64,000 nucleotides of DNA from the NCBI GenBank assembly GCA_017484065.1, contig JAFUTX010000018.1:1-64000 (forward strand). The letters run 5' to 3'. Shown in pieces: positions 13,885 through 51,141 of the stretch. Each line of letters opens with the position of its first letter. Positions within the stretch are counted from its first letter, which is position 1. The notes below the pieces were generated by a model. That model had not been told where the DNA came from, searched no databases, and was given only the letters and a program-made list of their open reading frames with translations. The stretch comes from Bacilli bacterium. Lineage in GTDB: Bacteria; Bacillota_I; Bacilli_A; RF39; UBA660. The position numbers and the translations under genes were made by a program.

Positions 13885-13910
13885 GGATCAACAATTATTA
13901 ATTGTTGATA
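13885..13910 (-). terminator. Terminator of the ApeA-like gene
   Basis: On the minus strand, ATCAACAATT pairs with AATTGTTGAT (13887-13909 region), followed by a T-rich tract. It overlaps the stop codon of the HEPN gene. Confidence 0.75.
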
Positions 13911-15292
13911 ATTTTTTCAATCATTTTATTATTTTTAATATTATTTAATTGTAATTCTCTATTTTTGTTTATTTCTTCAATATCAAAGCTTAAATTTTTC
14001 AAAATGAAGCAAGATAATAAATAATCTAGTATATAAATGCCATATTTTAAATTTGTTCCAGATAAACTCTTAGATTTTTTTGCTTCACTATAGTGTGTAT
14101 AATAATGCCTTGTATCAGAAAATATAGTTGTAATAATATCTATATTATTAATTATATTTTCATCAGTTTTAGTTAAGGAAAAATCATTAATAAATAAGTC
14201 AATCAATCTATTTTTTAATATAATAAATTCATCGCTCTGATTCGGATTATTTTTTACTAAATCAATTATATTAGAATTATCTTTAAACTTGTTATCTATA
14301 TGGTCGAAGAATTTTTTTACTTTTTTAAATTGCTTAGTATGTAACAATTCTAAAGCCTGCATTAAATTACAGAACCTTATTTCATCTGGTACATCATTAT
14401 TTATACCTAAATTATATAAATTATAAATACTGCTATATTCTTCATAAGAATCAAACCATCTTTTTAATCTATTTTTATATGCTATATTATTTAAACTAAA
14501 TAAATAAGTGTTAATACGTTCCGCATCAAGATTTTTAACATTATCATGTTTTACTAAATTTGTTATAATTTGATATTTAATATAATTCTTCTTTGTACCA
14601 ACTGCACCATTATATTTTTTATAGTTAATTCCTTTAATCTCTACTACATTTATTTTGGAACTTGTTGCTAACGTTATCATATTAGAAATCATTTTAAAAG
14701 TTTCTAGAAAATTATCGAAGGTAGTTTCTTTTTTATTTATTATATGAACCTCTACATGTTGAGAGATGTCTAATTTTTCAACCTGCATATCAAAATTGAA
14801 ACTTCCTAAATAAGGTACAAATTCGACACTCGTATTATCATCAATTTTAATTGTAACTTTATCTTTAAATTTATATCCGATTTTTAATCTATAATCTTTA
14901 TCATCAAAATATTCAAGTCCACTTAATTGAGACCACTTAATAATATTTGAAATATGAAAATGAACCTCATTAAACTTAAGTAAATCCTTTTTATTTTTTG
15001 ATAAATTTAAAAACATACTTCTAGCTAATATTACAATGTGATGTCTAACAAATGAATCAGAATGTCTTTTAACAATTTGACAATCAGTTAAAGTACATTT
15101 AATTTCTTGATTTAGTTTACCAGTTATAACATCTATTTCAGTTGGTTTATTCATCCAGGCTATGAATTCCTTATTATCTTTATAATAAATGGATAAAACA
15201 ATCATTCCATTTTCTTCATTGAAAGTAATATCTCCTTGATAATCTTTGCCAAGAATATTCCATTTACCACCAATAGTCATATCTTTATTCAT
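13898..15292 (-). CDS. ApeA-like HEPN-domain anti-phage protein
   Basis: 464 residues. The N-terminal ~200 residues have the beta-rich 'GKWNILGKDYQGDITFNEENG...L.IYY' pattern of the ApeA N-terminal domain. The C-terminal part is helical and holds an Rx4H motif (RHYYTH, R395 to H400), the catalytic signature of HEPN ribonucleases. ApeA proteins are described abortive-infection factors that act through their HEPN RNase. The start ATG has a perfect AGGAGG upstream. It lies 87 bp downstream of the cytosine methylase gene on the same strand, inside a defence cluster. Assignment of the family is by pattern; the trigger and target are unknown. Confidence 0.75.
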   Translation of the reverse strand: MNKDMTIGGKWNILGKDYQGDITFNEENGMIVLSIYYKDNKEFIAWMNKPTEIDVITGKLNQEIKCTLTDCQIVKRHSDSFVRHHIVILARSMFLNLSKNKKDLLKFNEVHFHISNIIKWSQLSGLEYFDDKDYRLKIGYKFKDKVTIKIDDNTSVEFVPYLGSFNFDMQVEKLDISQHVEVHIINKKETTFDNFLETFKMISNMITLATSSKINVVEIKGINYKKYNGAVGTKKNYIKYQIITNLVKHDNVKNLDAERINTYLFSLNNIAYKNRLKRWFDSYEEYSSIYNLYNLGINNDVPDEIRFCNLMQALELLHTKQFKKVKKFFDHIDNKFKDNSNIIDLVKNNPNQSDEFIILKNRLIDLFINDFSLTKTDENIINNIDIITTIFSDTRHYYTHYSEAKKSKSLSGTNLKYGIYILDYLLSCFILKNLSFDIEEINKNRELQLNNIKNNKMIEKIINN

Positions 15293-15363
15293 AATACTCC
15301 TCCTAAAAGACTAATTTCTAAACTATATTTTACCACACAAATAATAAATAGTTTCCTTTATGA

Positions 15364-15391
15364 ATTAAAAAACAGCAATTATTCATTGCTG
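15364..15391 (-). terminator. Terminator of the methyltransferase gene
   Basis: On the minus strand, CAGCAAT-GAATA-ATTGCTG (15373-15391) is followed by a T run. The stop codon region overlaps the stem. Confidence 0.8.
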
Positions 15392-16620
15392 ATTATTTTT
15401 TCTAATTCTTCTCCAATTTTTTTAATAATGCCAACAACTAAAGCATTACCCATCATGAAGTTTCTTTTTTTGTCAGTCATACCAGTATTAGTCCAATTGT
15501 CTGGGAAACAATTAATTCTTTCACATTCAATTGGAGTTAATAATCTAATCTTCTTGGTTTTATAATCCTCAACTATATGAGTTGTTCTACTAATTCCACC
15601 TTCACTAGTTAACATTGTTCTAGCTGGTGCATCTAAATTATCAGGACATGGCATAGCACCTTCGGTATAGAAATATTCTTCTCCATTAGGTTTAACTCTT
15701 GGAATTCTTTTATTACCTTTAAGATATTCAAATTTCTTATATGTTTCATCACTTAAGAAGAACTTTTTATCTATTTCTTCATGTTGAATAATCTTCTTTA
15801 ATGGGAAAACTTCATCACAATCAGCAGATACTTTTGAAGTATATACTTTACCATTTATCATAATTCCAGCATTGTAAAATTGTGCCTTAAATTTATCACT
15901 TACTTCAACTAAATCTTTATATGAATCTTTTGATAAATTAATTGTATTAAATTCTAGTTCTACATTTTTAATTGGAAATTGTTTAACAAACATTCCATCT
16001 TTAAAAATTATATCTTTAGGATTACTCTTTGATAATGATTTATAATACTCAGTAGATTTATGATAAGCAAATATAAATACTCTTCTTCTTTTTTGTGGTA
16101 AACCATATTCACCAGCATTTATAACTCTCCATTGAACTGCATAACCATTATCCATAAAGCTTCTTAAAATTATACCAAAATCTCTACCTCTTTGTTTAGC
16201 AGGAGATAATAATAATCTATCAACATTTTCTAATAGTACAAATGGAGGTTTTTTAGCTTTTAATATGTCATTGATTGCCCACCATAGCACTCCTTTTTTA
16301 CCTTCAATACCTTTACTATTCGAAAGAGTTTGAGCTACTGAATAATCTTGACATGGAAAACCACCAACTAAAAGTGTATGGTTTGGAATCTTCTTTTTAT
16401 CAACTTGAAATATATCAACATTGCTTGCATCTTTATTTCCGAATCTTTTAACATAACAATCAAAAGCTTCTTGTGTTTTGGTTGCAGGTTCCCATTGATT
16501 AGCCCAAACAAATTTCCAGTCTCCATTTTCTTTTACTTTATCATTTTTGAGTTCGACATTGTTTAGACCACATCTAAATCCACCAACTCCGGCAAATAAT
16601 TCTACTACAGTTTTTTCCAT
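15379..16620 (-). CDS. DNA (cytosine-5-)-methyltransferase, Sau3AI-type (GATC)
   Basis: 413 residues from the ATG at 16620, which has AGGAGGT eight bases upstream; the frame is open further upstream but without support. The order of C5-methylase motifs is normal: motif I VVELFAGVGGFRCGLN (5-20), motif IV GGFPCQDYSVAQ with catalytic C90, motif VI ENV (131-133), motif VIII QKRRRVFIFA (176-185), the target-recognition region, then motif X GNALVVGI near the end. Length matches M.Sau3AI-like enzymes, and the divergent neighbour is a Sau3AI/MutH-type nuclease. I therefore infer methylation of the C in GATC. It protects host DNA from that nuclease. Confidence 0.88.
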   Translation of the reverse strand: MEKTVVELFAGVGGFRCGLNNVELKNDKVKENGDWKFVWANQWEPATKTQEAFDCYVKRFGNKDASNVDIFQVDKKKIPNHTLLVGGFPCQDYSVAQTLSNSKGIEGKKGVLWWAINDILKAKKPPFVLLENVDRLLLSPAKQRGRDFGIILRSFMDNGYAVQWRVINAGEYGLPQKRRRVFIFAYHKSTEYYKSLSKSNPKDIIFKDGMFVKQFPIKNVELEFNTINLSKDSYKDLVEVSDKFKAQFYNAGIMINGKVYTSKVSADCDEVFPLKKIIQHEEIDKKFFLSDETYKKFEYLKGNKRIPRVKPNGEEYFYTEGAMPCPDNLDAPARTMLTSEGGISRTTHIVEDYKTKKIRLLTPIECERINCFPDNWTNTGMTDKKRNFMMGNALVVGIIKKIGEELEKIISNE

Positions 16621-16792
16621 GTTTTTGTACCTCCTGACATTGTCTAAATCCCCTAAATATATTATAATATATTTGATTAAAAAGATCAACTTTTGACAAA
16701 TAATATTATATAATAATTAATTATAAAGATCAACCTTATATTTATATTTTAAACTAATTTTTAAATTAAAACAAGATCGAAAGGAGAATTTT
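16621..16792. promoter_or_regulatory. Divergent R-M promoter region with two AAAGATCAAC sites
   Basis: Between the oppositely read methylase and endonuclease genes the 10-mer AAAGATCAAC occurs twice, at 16681-16690 and 16725-16734. Each contains GATC, the presumed target of the system. The 44-bp spacing is about four helical turns. Methylation-sensitive binding here could coordinate expression of the two enzymes. That is inference. Confidence 0.45.
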
Positions 16793-18190
16793 ATGAAAAA
16801 AGGTAGATTATACAACAGACAAGAAATAGAAATAATTTCTAAATCAGCAATCGGTAAATCAATTAATGATATTTTAGATGAAGAAGTAATTACTATAGAA
16901 GATAAGAATAATCCTAACAAAGGTGGATTAGGACAAATGGTAGAACAATTCTTATTTGGTATTCAAACTAATAGTGATTCAGAACCAGACTTCATGCCAG
17001 CAGGAATCGAATTAAAAGTTACTCCTTATAAGAAATTAAAAGATGGTAAGTTATCAGCTAAAGAAAGATTAGTATTAAATATAATTGATTATATGAGCGA
17101 ATATAAAAATGAATTCAAATCTAGTCATTTCTGGTTTAAAAATAATACTATTCAATTACTATGGTATTTATGGGAACCTAATAAAGATACAAAAGATTTA
17201 AAGATAACTCATGAAAAATTATTAGAATTAGTTAAAAATGAAGATTTAAAACAAATAGAAGAAGACTGGGAATTCATTATCAATAAAATAAAAGAAGGAA
17301 AAGCCCATGAAATATCAGAGGCTGATACTATGTATCTTGGTGCTTGTTCTAAAGGAGCAAATGCTAGTTCAGTTCGTGAACAACCATTTAGTGAAATTCC
17401 TGCTATGCAAAGAGCTTTTTGCTTTAAAAACTCTTATATGACTCAATTAGTTAGAAAATATATTGGAGACTATTCAGATGTTGAAAAAATACTTAAGGGA
17501 ACAACTGATTCATTTAATGAATTTGTAAATAGCGTTATTAATAAATATAAAGGTAAATCACAAAAAGAATTAATGAAAGAATTTAATATTGATTCATCTG
17601 CAAAAAACGTTAATAGTATGTTAGTTAGTAGAATGTTTAATGTCAAGAGTAAGCTTGGAGAAACTGAAGAATTTCAAAAAGCTAATATTATTCCAAAAAC
17701 AATTAGAATTGAGGAAAATGGAAGAATTAAAGAATCTATTTCATTTCCAGCATTTAAGTTTACTGAAATAGTAAATCAAGATTGGGAAACTTGCGATTTA
17801 AGAGAAGAATTGGAAACAACTAAATACATGTTCTTCGTATTTAAGAAAGAAAAAGATGATTACATATTCAAAGGTATCAAATTATGGAATATGCCTGAGA
17901 TGGATATTGAAACATCAGTTATGGAAATGTGGAAGAAAACTTACAACACTATTAAATCTGGAAACATTGTAAGATACATTAAAGATGGAAAGAGAAAAAC
18001 AAATTTTGTTGGCATGAGTGAAAATGAAGTATGCCATGTAAGACCTCATGGAAGAGATGCAAAAGATACAATTAAATTACCAGTAGCAGATAAACTAACT
18101 GGTGCAACTGAATATACAAAGCAATGTTTTTGGATTAACAATAATTATATTAAGAATATATTTCAAGAATATATAAAAAAATCGGAATAA
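16793..18190 (+). CDS. Sau3AI/MutH-family type II restriction endonuclease (GATC)
   Basis: 465 residues, close to Sau3AI (about 489). The N-terminal half shows the MutH/Sau3AI catalytic core: GLGQMVEQFLFG (E51), then EPDFMPAGIELKVTP with D66, E73 and K75, the D...ExK metal site. The C-terminal half fits the second, non-catalytic MutH-like DNA-binding domain of Sau3AI, which lets the protein loop two GATC sites. CGAAAGGAG precedes the start. Presence of the paired cytosine methylase makes a complete restriction-modification system. Confidence 0.88.
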   Translation: MKKGRLYNRQEIEIISKSAIGKSINDILDEEVITIEDKNNPNKGGLGQMVEQFLFGIQTNSDSEPDFMPAGIELKVTPYKKLKDGKLSAKERLVLNIIDYMSEYKNEFKSSHFWFKNNTIQLLWYLWEPNKDTKDLKITHEKLLELVKNEDLKQIEEDWEFIINKIKEGKAHEISEADTMYLGACSKGANASSVREQPFSEIPAMQRAFCFKNSYMTQLVRKYIGDYSDVEKILKGTTDSFNEFVNSVINKYKGKSQKELMKEFNIDSSAKNVNSMLVSRMFNVKSKLGETEEFQKANIIPKTIRIEENGRIKESISFPAFKFTEIVNQDWETCDLREELETTKYMFFVFKKEKDDYIFKGIKLWNMPEMDIETSVMEMWKKTYNTIKSGNIVRYIKDGKRKTNFVGMSENEVCHVRPHGRDAKDTIKLPVADKLTGATEYTKQCFWINNNYIKNIFQEYIKKSE

Positions 18191-20205: not shown

Positions 20206-20237
20206 CAAAAAAAGAATGCTGCTATTTTGCATTCTTT
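20206..20237 (-). terminator. Terminator of the DUF2075 gene
   Basis: AAAGAATGC (20211-20219) pairs with GCATTCTTT (20229-20237). The minus-strand product ends in a T run. Confidence 0.8.
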
Positions 20238-22102
20238 ACTTTTTCTTTAAGATAATCACTTAATTGCTTATTTGTACAATATACATAGCAACCTTTCATC
20301 CCTCGAGTCATTAACGTTCTATATGTGTTTTTAATAATAGCATCAGCTACTCTATTTGCTTCTCCTTGGCCTTCTTCTTTAGCTATTTTATTTATTCCTT
20401 TCAATGATTGATCTGTAGATGCTCTCTTTTTATAATCAGTTACAATATGACCATCTTCATATCTAATATCATCACCAATTATTACACCAACATAATCAAA
20501 TTCTAGTCCTTGACAAGTATGAATACAACCAATTTCATTAACTGACATTGGATCAATAGCCCAAGTTTGTGAATTACCTAAATTCCAGCTCATTTCAAAA
20601 TTATATTCAGGTATAACAATATCATGAATATCAGTATTATTTTTTCCCTCACTTATCCAATTCCAACAATAACCTGCCACCATTCTAGATTTATTATTTT
20701 CTTTATTCTTTTCTTCAATTAATCTTCTTACTTCATTAGGATTATCTAATACTCTAAAGTCATAATCGAAATCCATATCATCAAAGTTAGCAGTTTTTCT
20801 TATTTCTAATAAATTATCTAACCAAGCAAGATATCCATCAGAACCATTACATCTAAATTGACTTTCTAGTTCAACTACCTTAATACCTGCCCCTAATTCA
20901 TTAGCATATTTCTTAATTTCATCAACTGAGCCAATGTCTTTTAGCGTTACTTTCTGGTCTTCATCTATAAAAAATACTGAAAAATTAGCCGCATTAATTA
21001 TTTCTTTTATTTGATTTTCTCCTAAATTTTGAAACATTCCTGATTTAGCATTTAATCGATGTGCTTCATCTACTATTAATACATCCACTTCATTTTCTTT
21101 TGCATCAGTAAATTGACCTGAACCTTGAAATAAGTTATTAATATAAGTCATTTTAAATGAACCTTTTAATTTATCTCTAAATACTGCTCTAGGTGCAGCG
21201 TTTTTTGTTACATAAAAACTTGTCATATTTCTATTAGTTAATTCAACTAATAGATTAATAGCTAAAACCGATTTACCAGTACCAGGGCCACCTTGAACAA
21301 CTAATACATTTTTACTATTACTTGCTACTGTATCAATAGCCATTCTAATAGCATCTTCATATATTACTTTTTGTTCATCTATCATATTAAATTCTTTATT
21401 ACCTTGTAACATCTTAGCTAATGAATCTTGTAATCTTTTAGAAGGTCTTATTCTACCATTTTCTATTTTATATAGTAGTTCTCTATCATCACCTTCAACA
21501 ATATATTTTTTAATAAACTTTCTTAGTTTTTCAAAATCGTTAGTTCCAAACATAGGTGCTTTATTTATATATTCTTGATATTGACTACTACAAATAGGAT
21601 CATCATCTCTTAAATCATAATTATGTAAAAATGCACATGGATATAATCCTATATTATCTAACTGAACAGTTTCATTAAAATCTTTAATTAGATTCGCATA
21701 ACTCATCGCTTGATAAGATGGATGTGCTACTTCCCTAATTCCACCACCAGTAAAAGTAGATACAATAGCATCTTTACCTTCTACAGCAGTGCAAGTTTCC
21801 CATTGTTTTAATTCAATAATAATTACTGAATCTTTTCTATTATTATCCCTACCTGATAGTATAAAATCTATTCTTTTAGAAGTTGTTGGAATATTGAATT
21901 CAATAGCAACACCAGCATTGTCTGGTATTTCTATATCATCTAATACCCCCCTCATATATTGCATAGAATTCTTCCATGAATTTAATTGAGACTCGCTTGT
22001 TCTTCCAAAAAATTGTTTATATCTATCATAGATTTTATCAACAATTCTATTTAAATTAACATCATCTATAAAATCCGATTTAATTCCTTCATATATTAAC
22101 AT
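20222..22102 (-). CDS. Nuclease-helicase fusion (DUF2075/Schlafen-like ATPase)
   Basis: 626 residues from the ATG at 22102, which has AAGGAGG upstream; the longer frame overlaps the previous gene. The N-terminal ~200 residues contain 'RIDFILSG ... VIIIELKQWE', the D...ExK pattern of PD-(D/E)XK nucleases. A superfamily 1-type ATPase follows: Walker A QGGPGTGKSVLA (~270), Walker B VLIVDEAHRL (~345), a Q-F-R motif SQFRCNGSDGYLAWL (~420) and C-terminal 'CIHTCQGLEFDYVGVIIG' (~530). This is the DUF2075 family, found often in defence contexts. The start is one base from the end of a Cys-rich membrane protein gene, so the two are probably translationally coupled. The target is unknown. Confidence 0.8.
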   Translation of the reverse strand: MLIYEGIKSDFIDDVNLNRIVDKIYDRYKQFFGRTSESQLNSWKNSMQYMRGVLDDIEIPDNAGVAIEFNIPTTSKRIDFILSGRDNNRKDSVIIIELKQWETCTAVEGKDAIVSTFTGGGIREVAHPSYQAMSYANLIKDFNETVQLDNIGLYPCAFLHNYDLRDDDPICSSQYQEYINKAPMFGTNDFEKLRKFIKKYIVEGDDRELLYKIENGRIRPSKRLQDSLAKMLQGNKEFNMIDEQKVIYEDAIRMAIDTVASNSKNVLVVQGGPGTGKSVLAINLLVELTNRNMTSFYVTKNAAPRAVFRDKLKGSFKMTYINNLFQGSGQFTDAKENEVDVLIVDEAHRLNAKSGMFQNLGENQIKEIINAANFSVFFIDEDQKVTLKDIGSVDEIKKYANELGAGIKVVELESQFRCNGSDGYLAWLDNLLEIRKTANFDDMDFDYDFRVLDNPNEVRRLIEEKNKENNKSRMVAGYCWNWISEGKNNTDIHDIVIPEYNFEMSWNLGNSQTWAIDPMSVNEIGCIHTCQGLEFDYVGVIIGDDIRYEDGHIVTDYKKRASTDQSLKGINKIAKEEGQGEANRVADAIIKNTYRTLMTRGMKGCYVYCTNKQLSDYLKEKVKNAK

Positions 22103-22103
22103 A

Positions 22104-22508
22104 TTAAAACCTCCTTCTTTTATTTTTATTATTTCTACTAGGCATGCACAATACAACTATAAATAGAATTATTAAATAATACCAACCTGATGATTGCTCT
22201 TCACTTTCGACTGGATTTGATTCATTATCACTATTATATGAAGAGTCATATGAATTAGATCCTGTACTATTTGAAGTTGATGAACTGGGGCTAGTTGAAT
22301 TATGATTTGATTCACTACTTTGATCACTATAATTATTGCCACTATAGCTTGAATTGTTATTACATCCACCGTGTCTAGAGCAACATCCTTTGCTACAAAC
22401 TGTACAAGATTTACTTCTTGTACCATCATTACAAATGATATTTGCATTAACTTTTAAAGGCAAGAAAAATAGAAATACAATACATAATATATTTATTATT
22501 CTTTTCAT
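22104..22508 (-). CDS. Secreted/membrane-anchored Cys-rich protein
   Basis: 134 residues from the ATG at 22508 with GGAG eight bases upstream. Parts in order: a cleavable-looking signal peptide (1-22, ending VNANI); a compact Cys/His motif, CNDGTRSKSC, TVCSKGCC and SRHGGC, like the DUF3761 'CxDGTxS...CSxHGG' pattern; a long Ser/Asn/Tyr low-complexity linker (~50-108); one transmembrane helix (~108-124); and a basic tail. It should sit on the outer face with the Cys-rich head outside. It is co-transcribed with the nuclease-helicase directly downstream. The function of the motif is unknown. Confidence 0.6.
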   Translation of the reverse strand: MKRIINILCIVFLFFLPLKVNANIICNDGTRSKSCTVCSKGCCSRHGGCNNNSSYSGNNYSDQSSESNHNSTSPSSSTSNSTGSNSYDSSYNSDNESNPVESEEQSSGWYYLIILFIVVLCMPSRNNKNKRRRF

Positions 22509-30862: not shown

Positions 30863-30895
30863 AAAAAAATGTTAATAACATATTAGTTATCAACA
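30863..30895 (-). terminator. Terminator of parB
   Basis: Minus strand TGTTGATAAC-TAATAT-GTTATTAACA with one mismatch, followed by TTTTTTT. The stop codon is inside the stem. Confidence 0.75.
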
Positions 30896-32046
30896 TTAAT
30901 AGTTATTGTATTGTTATCTACTACTTTGTTTATTTTCATATCTGCTTGGTATTTATTTATAAGATTTGTTAATTCTTCATTAAATTCATCAAATCTATTT
31001 GATTTATTATCTTCAATTGGAGTTTGAATGATAGGCTCTGAATTAAGTATAAAATCATCTAAACTTTCTATTTCTTCTATTTCATTGTTATTAGGTTGTT
31101 CTTCTACTACTCCAATTACACTAGTATTATCTATTGCTGGTTCTTCTAATACACTTTCTTGTTCATTTACTAAAGTAGGTTCTATTGGTTTGGATGTTTC
31201 TTCAACAGTTACTGGTTCTGGTTCATTTTCTTTTTCAATTACATTTTCTTCTATTTTAGGTTCTTCCACTGGTTGTTCGTTACCTAATGTAATAACTTCA
31301 CCATTATTAGCCATTGGTGCAGGTTCATTATTATTTACTTCATTACTTTCTATGTTTATATCATTACTTTTCATAATATATTTATTTTCTTCAAATAATT
31401 TAGTAATATCAGGGATTAATTTTACGTCATTATCGTTATCTACTTCATGTTCTTTTTTTAATGCTAAATCTAATTGGCGAACTGTCATTCTTTCGTTAAT
31501 TATTTTATTTAACCACTCTACTTGCTTAGTTTTATCATTTAGATTTAATAAAGATCTAGCATGTCTTTCTGATATTTGTTCTTTTAATAATGCTTCTTGA
31601 ACTTCATCTGCTAATGTTAATAGCTTTAATTTATTTTGAATTGTATTAACTGATACACCCATTTTATTAGCTAATTGATTAATATCTTCAGTATGACTAT
31701 CTAATATATTTTGATATGATTTAGCTTCTTCTATACATGTAAGTTCTCTTCTTTGAACATTTTCTGTTAAGGCTATTTCTGCACTGGCTTGGTCATTAAT
31801 ATTAGATAGAATTGCTGGTACTTGGAGTAAGCCTGCCATCATTGCTGCTCTATATCTTCTTTCGCCAGCTATGATTTCATACTTTTCGCCATTTTTGCGT
31901 ACTACTAGGGGTTGAATAATACCATGTTCTTTAATAGATTTTGATAATTCTTGTAATCCTTGATCGTCAAAATTTAACCGTGGTTGAAAACGGTTAGGTA
32001 TAATGTCTTCTACTGGTATTTGTAATATACTATTTTCTGTGTTCAT
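30883..32046 (-). CDS. parB: ParB/Noc-family centromere-binding CTPase
   Basis: 387 residues. The N-terminal CTP-binding domain carries GERRYR (61-66) and ENVQR (95-99), the nucleotide and hydrolysis motifs of ParB clamps. The DNA-binding helix-turn-helix is at ~121-142, and 'ISERHARSLLNL' follows. Residues ~200-345 form an unusually long acidic, Asn/Pro/Glu-rich linker, before a short C-terminal dimerisation-like end. The locus (directly after rsmG) and parts of the sequence are like Noc. However, the amphipathic membrane-targeting N-terminus of Noc is absent, and the palindromes near gyrA are parS-like. No parA gene is in the window. I favour chromosome-partition ParB. Confidence 0.82.
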   Translation of the reverse strand: MNTENSILQIPVEDIIPNRFQPRLNFDDQGLQELSKSIKEHGIIQPLVVRKNGEKYEIIAGERRYRAAMMAGLLQVPAILSNINDQASAEIALTENVQRRELTCIEEAKSYQNILDSHTEDINQLANKMGVSVNTIQNKLKLLTLADEVQEALLKEQISERHARSLLNLNDKTKQVEWLNKIINERMTVRQLDLALKKEHEVDNDNDVKLIPDITKLFEENKYIMKSNDINIESNEVNNNEPAPMANNGEVITLGNEQPVEEPKIEENVIEKENEPEPVTVEETSKPIEPTLVNEQESVLEEPAIDNTSVIGVVEEQPNNNEIEEIESLDDFILNSEPIIQTPIEDNKSNRFDEFNEELTNLINKYQADMKINKVVDNNTITINVDN

Positions 32047-32169: not shown

Positions 32170-32877
32170 CTAGATAATACTCTTTTTTACTATTTGACTA
32201 TAATTTCTTGGAACATTATTACCATTACTTTTATTTTTCTTAATGATAATTATGTTTCTTTTACTATGTTCAATTGGTAATTCTATTTCGAGTATTTTTT
32301 CTATTTCACTATTTAAATAATTTATAGTTGATATTGATTCTTGTAGTTCTTCATCTGAATTTGTTTTCATAACTAGAAATTTTCCACCTATTTTAAGGTA
32401 TGGAATAGATAACTCACTAATTATGCGTAGATGGGCTACTGCTCTTGATGTTACTACATCAAATTTTTCGCGATTATCTTTAATAAAGTTTTCTGCTCTA
32501 TCATTAATTATTTCAATGTTAGTAAGTTTTAAGTTATTAACAATTTGATTTAAAAATTTAGTTTTTTTATTATTTGAATCTAATAATGTAAGCTTAATAT
32601 TAGGAAATACTATTTTTAATACTAGTCCTGGAAATCCTGCACCACTGCCGATATCTAATACATTTACTTCTTTGGTAAAGTCATAAGCTTTTACTAATGT
32701 TATTGAGTCATAGAAGTGTTTAAGTAAGATATCTTCATAGTTTCTTATAGCAGTTAAGTTTGTATGAGAGTTATATTCTATTAATTCATCTATATATTCT
32801 TTAATTTGAATTTGTTGTTCTTCATTTAAGGTGATACTTAACTTATTTATTTCTTCTAAAAATAGATTAAAATTCAT
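32170..32877 (-). CDS. rsmG: 16S rRNA (guanine527-N7)-methyltransferase
   Basis: 235 residues. It methylates G527 of 16S rRNA with SAM. The SAM-binding loop is clear: NVLDIGSGAGFPGLVLKI (~66-83), then 'VTSRAVAHLRIISEL' (~135), both typical of GidB/RsmG. It overlaps mnmG by one base, forming the mnmE-mnmG-rsmG operon found beside oriC in most Firmicutes. Confidence 0.93.
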   Translation of the reverse strand: MNFNLFLEEINKLSITLNEEQQIQIKEYIDELIEYNSHTNLTAIRNYEDILLKHFYDSITLVKAYDFTKEVNVLDIGSGAGFPGLVLKIVFPNIKLTLLDSNNKKTKFLNQIVNNLKLTNIEIINDRAENFIKDNREKFDVVTSRAVAHLRIISELSIPYLKIGGKFLVMKTNSDEELQESISTINYLNSEIEKILEIELPIEHSKRNIIIIKKNKSNGNNVPRNYSQIVKKSII

Positions 32878-49954: not shown

Positions 49955-50976
49955 AATGTTACACGTGTAACATTGATATTAACGAATTATATATTTATAT
50001 TAGTTTTGAAACGAATCTTTTTATTATTTATTCTAATTAATTATATATATTTATTGATGGCGTGTTATTACTTGTTCTAATGTTACACGTGTAACATAGT
50101 AAAAGTAAGAAATTAATGGCAATTATAATTTTATTATTATTTGCATTGTTTAAAATAGTTAAACATATTTTAATTTATTAACATAAAAATTTCAATGTTA
50201 CACGTGTAACATTGAAATTAATGAATTATATATTAATCTAAAATATTAAATATGCTTTTATAATATATTCAATTTAATTATATTTTCTCTAGATAATACA
50301 TTATTATCTGCACTGATGTTACACGTGTAACATTGGATGTTTTAAATTAAATTTGAGTGTTTTTTCATCATATTATTTTTTTATGTTTTATTACTTATTA
50401 TTTTATAAATAAGATTAATTAATGTTACACGTGTAACATTAATTATATGATTATAATTTATATATTTTTTATTTTTTAGTTTTCTAATATTGTTATTGAT
50501 CATTTTTACTTTCAATGAATCCAAATTCAATGTTACACGTGTAACATTGTTAGTAACTAATTTTTTATCTATGATTTATCTTTTTTTATGTTTATTGTAT
50601 ATATCTTAAACATTTTATTTTATTTAATTATCATTTTTTGATTAAGCAATGGGTCGCACAATGTTACACGTGTAACATTGTGTATAACTTTTAAATTCAT
50701 TTATAAAATACTTATAAAACAAATACTTAATTTAATATTTTGAACAATTATTATTAAAAATATGTTGATGAATGTTACACGTGTAACATTGTTAGTAATA
50801 TCATTTTATATGTTATTAATAGTTTGATTGATTTATAGATTCCATTTATATTTTATATTATTTAATAAGATGTTATATGCGTAATGTTGAATGAACCGAA
50901 CAATAACAAAGCAATATATTATAATATTAAATAAATATTTCTTTTAATAAAAAAATGATGTTACACGTGTAACATT
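49955..50976. repeat. parS: parS centromere array: nine identical palindromes plus one decayed
   Basis: The 16-mer TGTTACACGTGTAACA is found at 49957, 50081, 50196, 50317, 50423, 50531, 50662, 50773 and 50959 (start positions). All nine share the 18-mer ATGTTACACGTGTAACAT, and most extend to AATGTTACACGTGTAACATT. A degraded copy (TGTTATATGCGTAATG, 11 of 16) is at 50871. The spacing is 124, 115, 121, 106, 108, 131, 111, 98 and 88 bp. The spacers are AT-rich and unrelated to each other. The core fits parS (TGTTNCACGTGNAACA), and a parB gene lies about 18 kb away across oriC. No coding frame crosses the region. Confidence 0.85.
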
Positions 50977-51012: not shown

Positions 51013-51018
51013 TATTTT

Positions 51019-51094
51019 GTGCAACAAATATATTGTAAATTGGTCAGGATTGGAAAATAGCAGCCATATCAGTCACTATTTGTGTGCACTTTTT
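51019..51094 (+). ncRNA. ffs: Signal recognition particle RNA (small bacterial form)
   Basis: The conserved helix 8 is present: TCAGG, then ATT-GGAA-AAT (a GGAA tetraloop on a 3-bp helix), then AGCAGCC, the signature that binds Ffh. The ends close as GTGC/GCAC and ACAAATA/TATTTGT. At about 71 nt plus a T tail it is a minimal hairpin without an Alu domain. The position directly before tadA/dnaX is the same as scr in Bacillus. The T run at 51090-51094 completes a terminator. Confidence 0.88.
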
Positions 51095-51141
51095 ATATGA
51101 AAAAAATATATAGACGAACGTATGTATGTGTGAGGTTTTTA

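Follow-up and report, generated by a model that had tools for sequence, protein, structure and literature searches.

A Noc ortholog without an N-terminal helix in RF39 Bacilli and the probable retargeting or loss of its DNA recognition in one genus

The window, the whole stretch of DNA analyzed here, comprises bases 1-64000 of contig C20, the 136-kb origin contig of a 1.19-Mb genome (G000) that is 93% complete, and the contig spans about 40 kb on one side of dnaA and 95 kb on the other. The ORF map of the window places a noc-like gene (P0001) directly after the rsmG-mnmG-mnmE cluster (Table 1). As a first-pass annotation had described, its complete reading frame adjoins rsmG, both Noc-like pieces, IPNRFQPR and ISERHARSLL, are found in the translation, and parA is absent beside the gene and within the window. 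parAB itself often lies after rsmG in bacteria, therefore the "noc position" argument is weak by itself, and it happens to be right for the gene studied here. The window also carries a probable defence cluster at 13898-18190 with ApeA-type HEPN, C5 cytosine methylase and MutH/Sau3AI-like proteins, an IS200-type transposase at 1614-2069 and a Schlafen-group-3 helicase-domain protein at 20222-22156 (all by Pfam).

Table 1. Features of the noc-like gene, its neighbourhood and the ParA-family and ParB genes of the same genome (plain coordinates are window positions; residue numbers are those of P0001, with Caulobacter numbers after the equals sign).
Feature	Position	Strand	Basis or remark
noc-like gene P0001, 387 aa	30883..32046	-	complete ORF; Pfam ParB_N and HTH_ParB; best PDB matches are Noc; Noc clade in tree
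ParB N-terminal CTPase domain, residues 6-98, GERRYRA and ENVQRR conserved	31753..32031	-	Pfam PF02195; invariant columns; pLDDT mostly >80
ParB/Noc DNA-binding domain, residues 101-199	31450..31746	-	Pfam PF17762; model against 6y93 Noc DNA-binding domain, TM 0.9 by target
Recognition helix, residues 133-144: V133 (=173), K139 (=179), K141 (=181), T144 (=184)	31615..31650	-	residue table, conserved-column test, model helix
I122 (=Q162) and V131 (=K171)			just upstream of the recognition helix
Degenerate linker motif M1, residues 212-231, predicted helix 214-226	31369..31407	-	motif search on 56 linkers; model helix
Long acidic, mostly disordered linker, residues 206-350	30997..31431	-	without FF motif (M2) and DLDSLL motif (M3)
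Diverged C-terminal segment, residues 351-387	30886..30996	-	relatives' domain Noc-type; window genus without significant match
rsmG (gidB), upstream neighbour	32170..32877	-	sequence and gene order mnmE-mnmG-rsmG
Nine perfect parS, TGTTACACGTGTAACA	49957..50974	.	between gyrA and SRP RNA gene/tadA; attributed to canonical ParB
SRP RNA gene	51013-51095
ParA	C20:86383-87168		starts 22 kb beyond the window end
Canonical ParB, 295 aa, short linker	C20:87158-88045		partner of ParA
Other ParA-like matches (CpaE/TadZ-like ATPase, FtsY)	C15:26548-27042 and C24:38821-39126		named from sequence

In the AlphaFold2 model of the noc-like protein the first 205 residues are well folded, and confidence is low over most of residues 231-352. 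The acidic low-complexity linker noted earlier at about residues 200-345 was borne out, with 27% D+E over 200-345. The absence of a membrane-targeting N-terminus was likewise confirmed: the open frame extends only five codons upstream of the ATG (a 392-aa frame), so an N-terminal amphipathic helix cannot precede the ATG, and the model begins with a strand at residues 7-11.

To place the protein between Noc and ParB we used the Caulobacter residue numbering of PMC7383237, by which Noc carries Q173, K179, K184 and R201, and ParB carries R173, variable residues at 179 and 184, and G201. The noc-like gene has V173, K179, T184 and R201, thus R201 and the permissive K179 are present as for Noc, and the canonical ParB pair R173 and G201 is absent. 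In PDB searches, Noc ranked above Spo0J. In a tree of 83 sequences, Noc proteins of the UBA660 family formed one clade (0.94) within all R201 proteins, the window gene grouped with that of its sister species (0.998), and the canonical ParB proteins from the same genomes were placed among ParB, apart from Noc; the node uniting all Noc had a support of only 0.67. By hhalign, the C-terminal domain of the family's Noc matched outgroup Noc at 95% and ParB at 0.07%, and the C-terminal segment of the window genus gave no significant match and is not recognisably Noc. The TIGR04285 score of the noc-like gene, 246.7 bits, lies below the curated cut-off of 315 bits, and relatives scored 287-290 bits and the genome's own canonical ParB 225 bits. 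Because of the tree, the R201/K179 pair and the family's C-terminal domain, we regard the gene as a Noc ortholog and not as an orphan chromosome-partition ParB. The first-pass annotation was therefore right about the Noc-like character and wrong about an orphan ParB or an evolutionary Noc/ParB intermediate, since the gene falls within a group of Noc proteins that all have R201.

A search of the genome for parA and a second parB found both at C20:86383-88045, on the same contig as the noc-like gene and 54 kb from it. This second ParB shares the ParB fold, the HTH and the CTP pocket with the noc-like protein and, unlike it, has a short linker within 295 aa, the LGKGL ParA-binding motif (LG[K/R]GL, as defined in PMC12704722), R173 and G201 (the full parS-type set), a partner ParA and a parS array. 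The array consists of nine TGTTACACGTGTAACA copies against 0.22 expected, as identical 18-bp palindromes (ATGTTACACGTGTAACAT) with a spacing of 106-186 bp, and lies 18 kb from the noc-like gene. As stated earlier, the sites in the window are of the parS type (CACGTG); neither the window nor the rest of the 1.19-Mb genome contains a CCCGGG-type site. As many as 18 parS occur in relatives, and all of the relatives' sites listed have T or C in place of A at the variable position. The parS of the sister species, just three in number, are of the ordinary kind, so we rejected TGTTACACGTGTAACA as a genus-specific site. Given a canonical parA-parB with parS-type residues, the array is best assigned to the ParB of that pair. 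The original proposal, in which a canonical ParB kept the noc locus, lost its parA and binds the array, drew on the position adjoining rsmG and the nearby parS-type sites. It is rejected as very improbable on account of the separate parA-parB pair and of the tree, which together with R201/K179 puts the gene in Noc; moreover, the LG[K/R]GL motif is absent from P0001.

The combination of two such genes extends over this gut-bacterial order. Our sample of the family covers 58 genomes in 57 genera, and nearly all of them contain one canonical ParB of about 295 aa and one long-linker Noc of 340-750 aa; in a wider sample of 194 genomes of the order, two ParB-like genes (a long one and one of about 295 aa) are present in most. 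These relatives are uncultured Bacilli MAGs, such as Ca. Coprovivens, Ca. Ventrenecus and Ca. Onthousia. In genus g80 (G093, G156, G189, G198, G205) most genomes have a single ParB-like match, which suggests Noc loss. Nearly all of 136 homologs have an in-frame stop some 16-30 codons upstream of NRFQPR, which leaves no room for a B. subtilis-type helix. B. subtilis Noc is not functional without its first ten residues, and the helix was predicted in every homologue examined in that study (PMC4331003). The absence is not unique to the order, since an obvious N-terminal helix is also missing from a few Noc of other Bacilli families. In another Bacilli family, a 681-aa long-linker Noc (L172, G237:C1:111500-117000) has the N-terminal sequence MALFNRKDK and ends in ...DGFWNLFK.

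Most linkers in the order carry conserved short motifs, namely M1 (fpDINkIkenAqDIN), M2 ([NG][KR]FFNFLE, which includes [RK]FFNFLE) and M3 (ADLDSLL), whose likelihood gains in an EM motif search on 56 linkers were far above those of shuffled linkers. Of 135 linkers, 62 contain [RK]FF, whereas shuffling gave 2.8. The FF motif resembles R7-F8-F9 of B. subtilis Noc; as its flanks are acidic, it may as likely be a protein-binding motif as a relocated membrane anchor. Another linker motif, ETLDF, may resemble the FtsZ C-terminal peptide, a likeness on which we base no claim of mimicry. The linker of the window protein retains only a weak M1; M2 and M3 are gone.

The Noc binding site (NBS) is also widely kept in the family. 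The exact core TTTCCCGGGAAA was found in 50 of the 58 genomes, with 0 matches for the reversed control, and the relaxed pattern in 51 of 58. NBS number roughly 1-20 per genome, typically few, and lie close to parS near oriC, where the two kinds of site are interleaved. Among the 60 NBS listed, from 21 genomes, 49 were on a parS-bearing contig; 48 of these were within 17 kb of a parS and 18 within 1 kb. In six genomes with a parS contig of 72-245 kb, all 14 NBS of the genome were within about 10 kb of parS, and uniform placement would rarely give such clustering. Four genomes have an NBS upstream of noc, three of them within about 300 bp and one at about 700 bp. In one genome (G022, 20 NBS in total), a dozen NBS with a spacing of about 79 bp at G022:C1:89141-90101 form an array analogous to the parS array. 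This confinement near parS suggests that Noc loading in the order takes place near the origin. Five genomes with Q173 were also without NBS by the relaxed pattern (G008, G018, G033, G045, G055), of which G008 and G018 may miss the origin region because they are also without any parS match.

The window genus, represented by two incomplete MAGs, departs from this pattern. NBS were absent from both of its genomes, G000 and G034, by the strict and the relaxed pattern, with the origin contig of G000 fully covered. There were 2 CCCGGG-type sites with one mismatch, and as the reversed control had 3, we dismissed them as chance. A de novo search of the origin contig C20, from which an AT-rich or non-palindromic target could escape, found no recurring palindrome other than parS on its 136 kb; parS was the only clear palindrome common to this contig and the origin region of the sister species, and no palindrome was present upstream of noc in the genus. 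Moreover, of the 62 columns with a conservation of at least 95% among 133 other homologs, four carry the same change in both species, namely K66R, Q122I, Q133V and R141K, and Q122, Q133 and R141 are invariant in 133/133 of the others. In Caulobacter numbering the latter three are Q162I, Q173V and R181K, and Q162 and position 173 (R173) are published DNA contacts (PMC7383237). Thus Q173, which reads adenine 1 of the NBS, is replaced by V in both members of the genus and is Q in the 133 other homologs. V131 stands in place of the contact K171, at a position that is variable in NBS-bearing relatives. R201 and K179 are kept and would fit a CCCGGG-like core, yet no such site was found. The co-loss of NBS and Q173 counts as a single statistical coincidence, because the two MAGs represent one evolutionary event. 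In the genus, dN/dS was 0.170/1.02 (about 0.17) for the Noc core and 0.174/1.02 for ParB; the Noc core is as constrained as ParB and is under purifying selection.

Because the contact residues and NBS are gone and the core is constrained, the simplest reading of the sequences would be a change in DNA recognition with the clamp still of use. We accordingly favour, with a probability of about 0.75, an order-variant Noc ortholog whose clamp core was kept and whose site recognition was retargeted or lost in the window genus. It is conceivable that the protein instead took the nine-copy parS array as its new target and occupies it together with ParB in a mixed centromere complex, given that no palindrome but parS is repeated on the origin contig, that no other clear one is common to it and the origin region of the sister species, and that a step from interleaved NBS and parS to site sharing is small. 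In a deep mutational scan, however, parS-specific variants had an invariable R173 and a small residue at 201 (PMC7383237), against V173/R201 here; besides, the sister species has only its three ordinary sites and the canonical ParB already holds the full R173/G201 set. Due to V173/R201, parS is disfavoured as the target of the window Noc, we consider a shared array unlikely, and the earlier suggestion that the gene works with the clustered array is likewise unlikely.

A decaying Noc, being lost after the loss of NBS as apparently in another genus, would account for the joint loss of NBS, Q173, M2 and M3 and the C-terminal divergence, and genus g80 offers a parallel with mostly one ParB-like match per genome. 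Against this stand open frames in both species, a core dN/dS equal to that of ParB and, in the alignment columns, full conservation of the CTP-pocket residues, and we rate decay slightly less likely again than a shared array. Within the favoured reading of a retargeted or lost recognition, and in an order whose Noc would have become an origin-restricted CTP clamp that relies on linker motifs in place of an N-terminal helix, a new DNA target or site-independent loading would make this Noc a natural third ParB/Noc specificity besides parS and NBS, which we offer tentatively and at somewhat less than even odds.

For this protein we infer its function, a clamping by CTP, a changed specificity and an N-terminus that no longer binds the membrane, and a CTP clamp with a linker that would engage a partner or the membrane follows the known CTP-dependent clamp biology of Noc (PMC8429893). 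Noc would have been retained beside rsmG, and the canonical ParA-ParB would have moved about 54 kb off and use the parS array. The short linker motifs of the order's Noc are probably the parts that engage a partner or the membrane. The Noc of relatives would be a CTP clamp that loads at few NBS beside parS and thus would mark the replication origin and not the nucleoid at large, and in the window genus it may act at a new site, by non-specific loading or through a partner. No MinD was present among the ParA-family matches of the genome, the two besides parA being CpaE/TadZ-like and FtsY, so we speculate that Noc may matter more for division placing.

Compared with B. subtilis/Geobacillus Noc (PMC4331003, PMC8429893, PMC7383237), the same ParB-CTPase and HTH core, the locus after rsmG, R201 and K179 are found here, and relatives in the order also share Q173, the NBS sequence and the Noc-type C-terminal domain. 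Unlike it, the Noc of the order has no N-terminal amphipathic helix and has a long acidic, motif-bearing linker; its few NBS lie close to parS in relatives, whereas the sites of B. subtilis Noc are scattered, and the window genus differs further by Q173V, Q162I, R181K and zero NBS. S. aureus Noc (PMC5540599) is alike in its origin-biased sites and in a second ParB in the genome, but its sites occupy 41 loci over about half the chromosome and there is no ParA, whereas here parA is present and relatives have roughly 1-20 NBS. S. aureus Noc restrains replication initiation (PMC5540599) and is a possible model for an origin-restricted Noc.

The divergence of Noc from ParB is a well-studied specificity switch that has been mapped in the laboratory through four residues. 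The order appears to continue that switch in nature, with most genera keeping Q173 and the exact NBS and one genus having lost both. The N-terminal helix is missing across the whole order though the protein and its sites are conserved, and the confinement of NBS to the neighbourhood of parS suggests that Noc in these bacteria may have an origin-marking and not a nucleoid-wide role.
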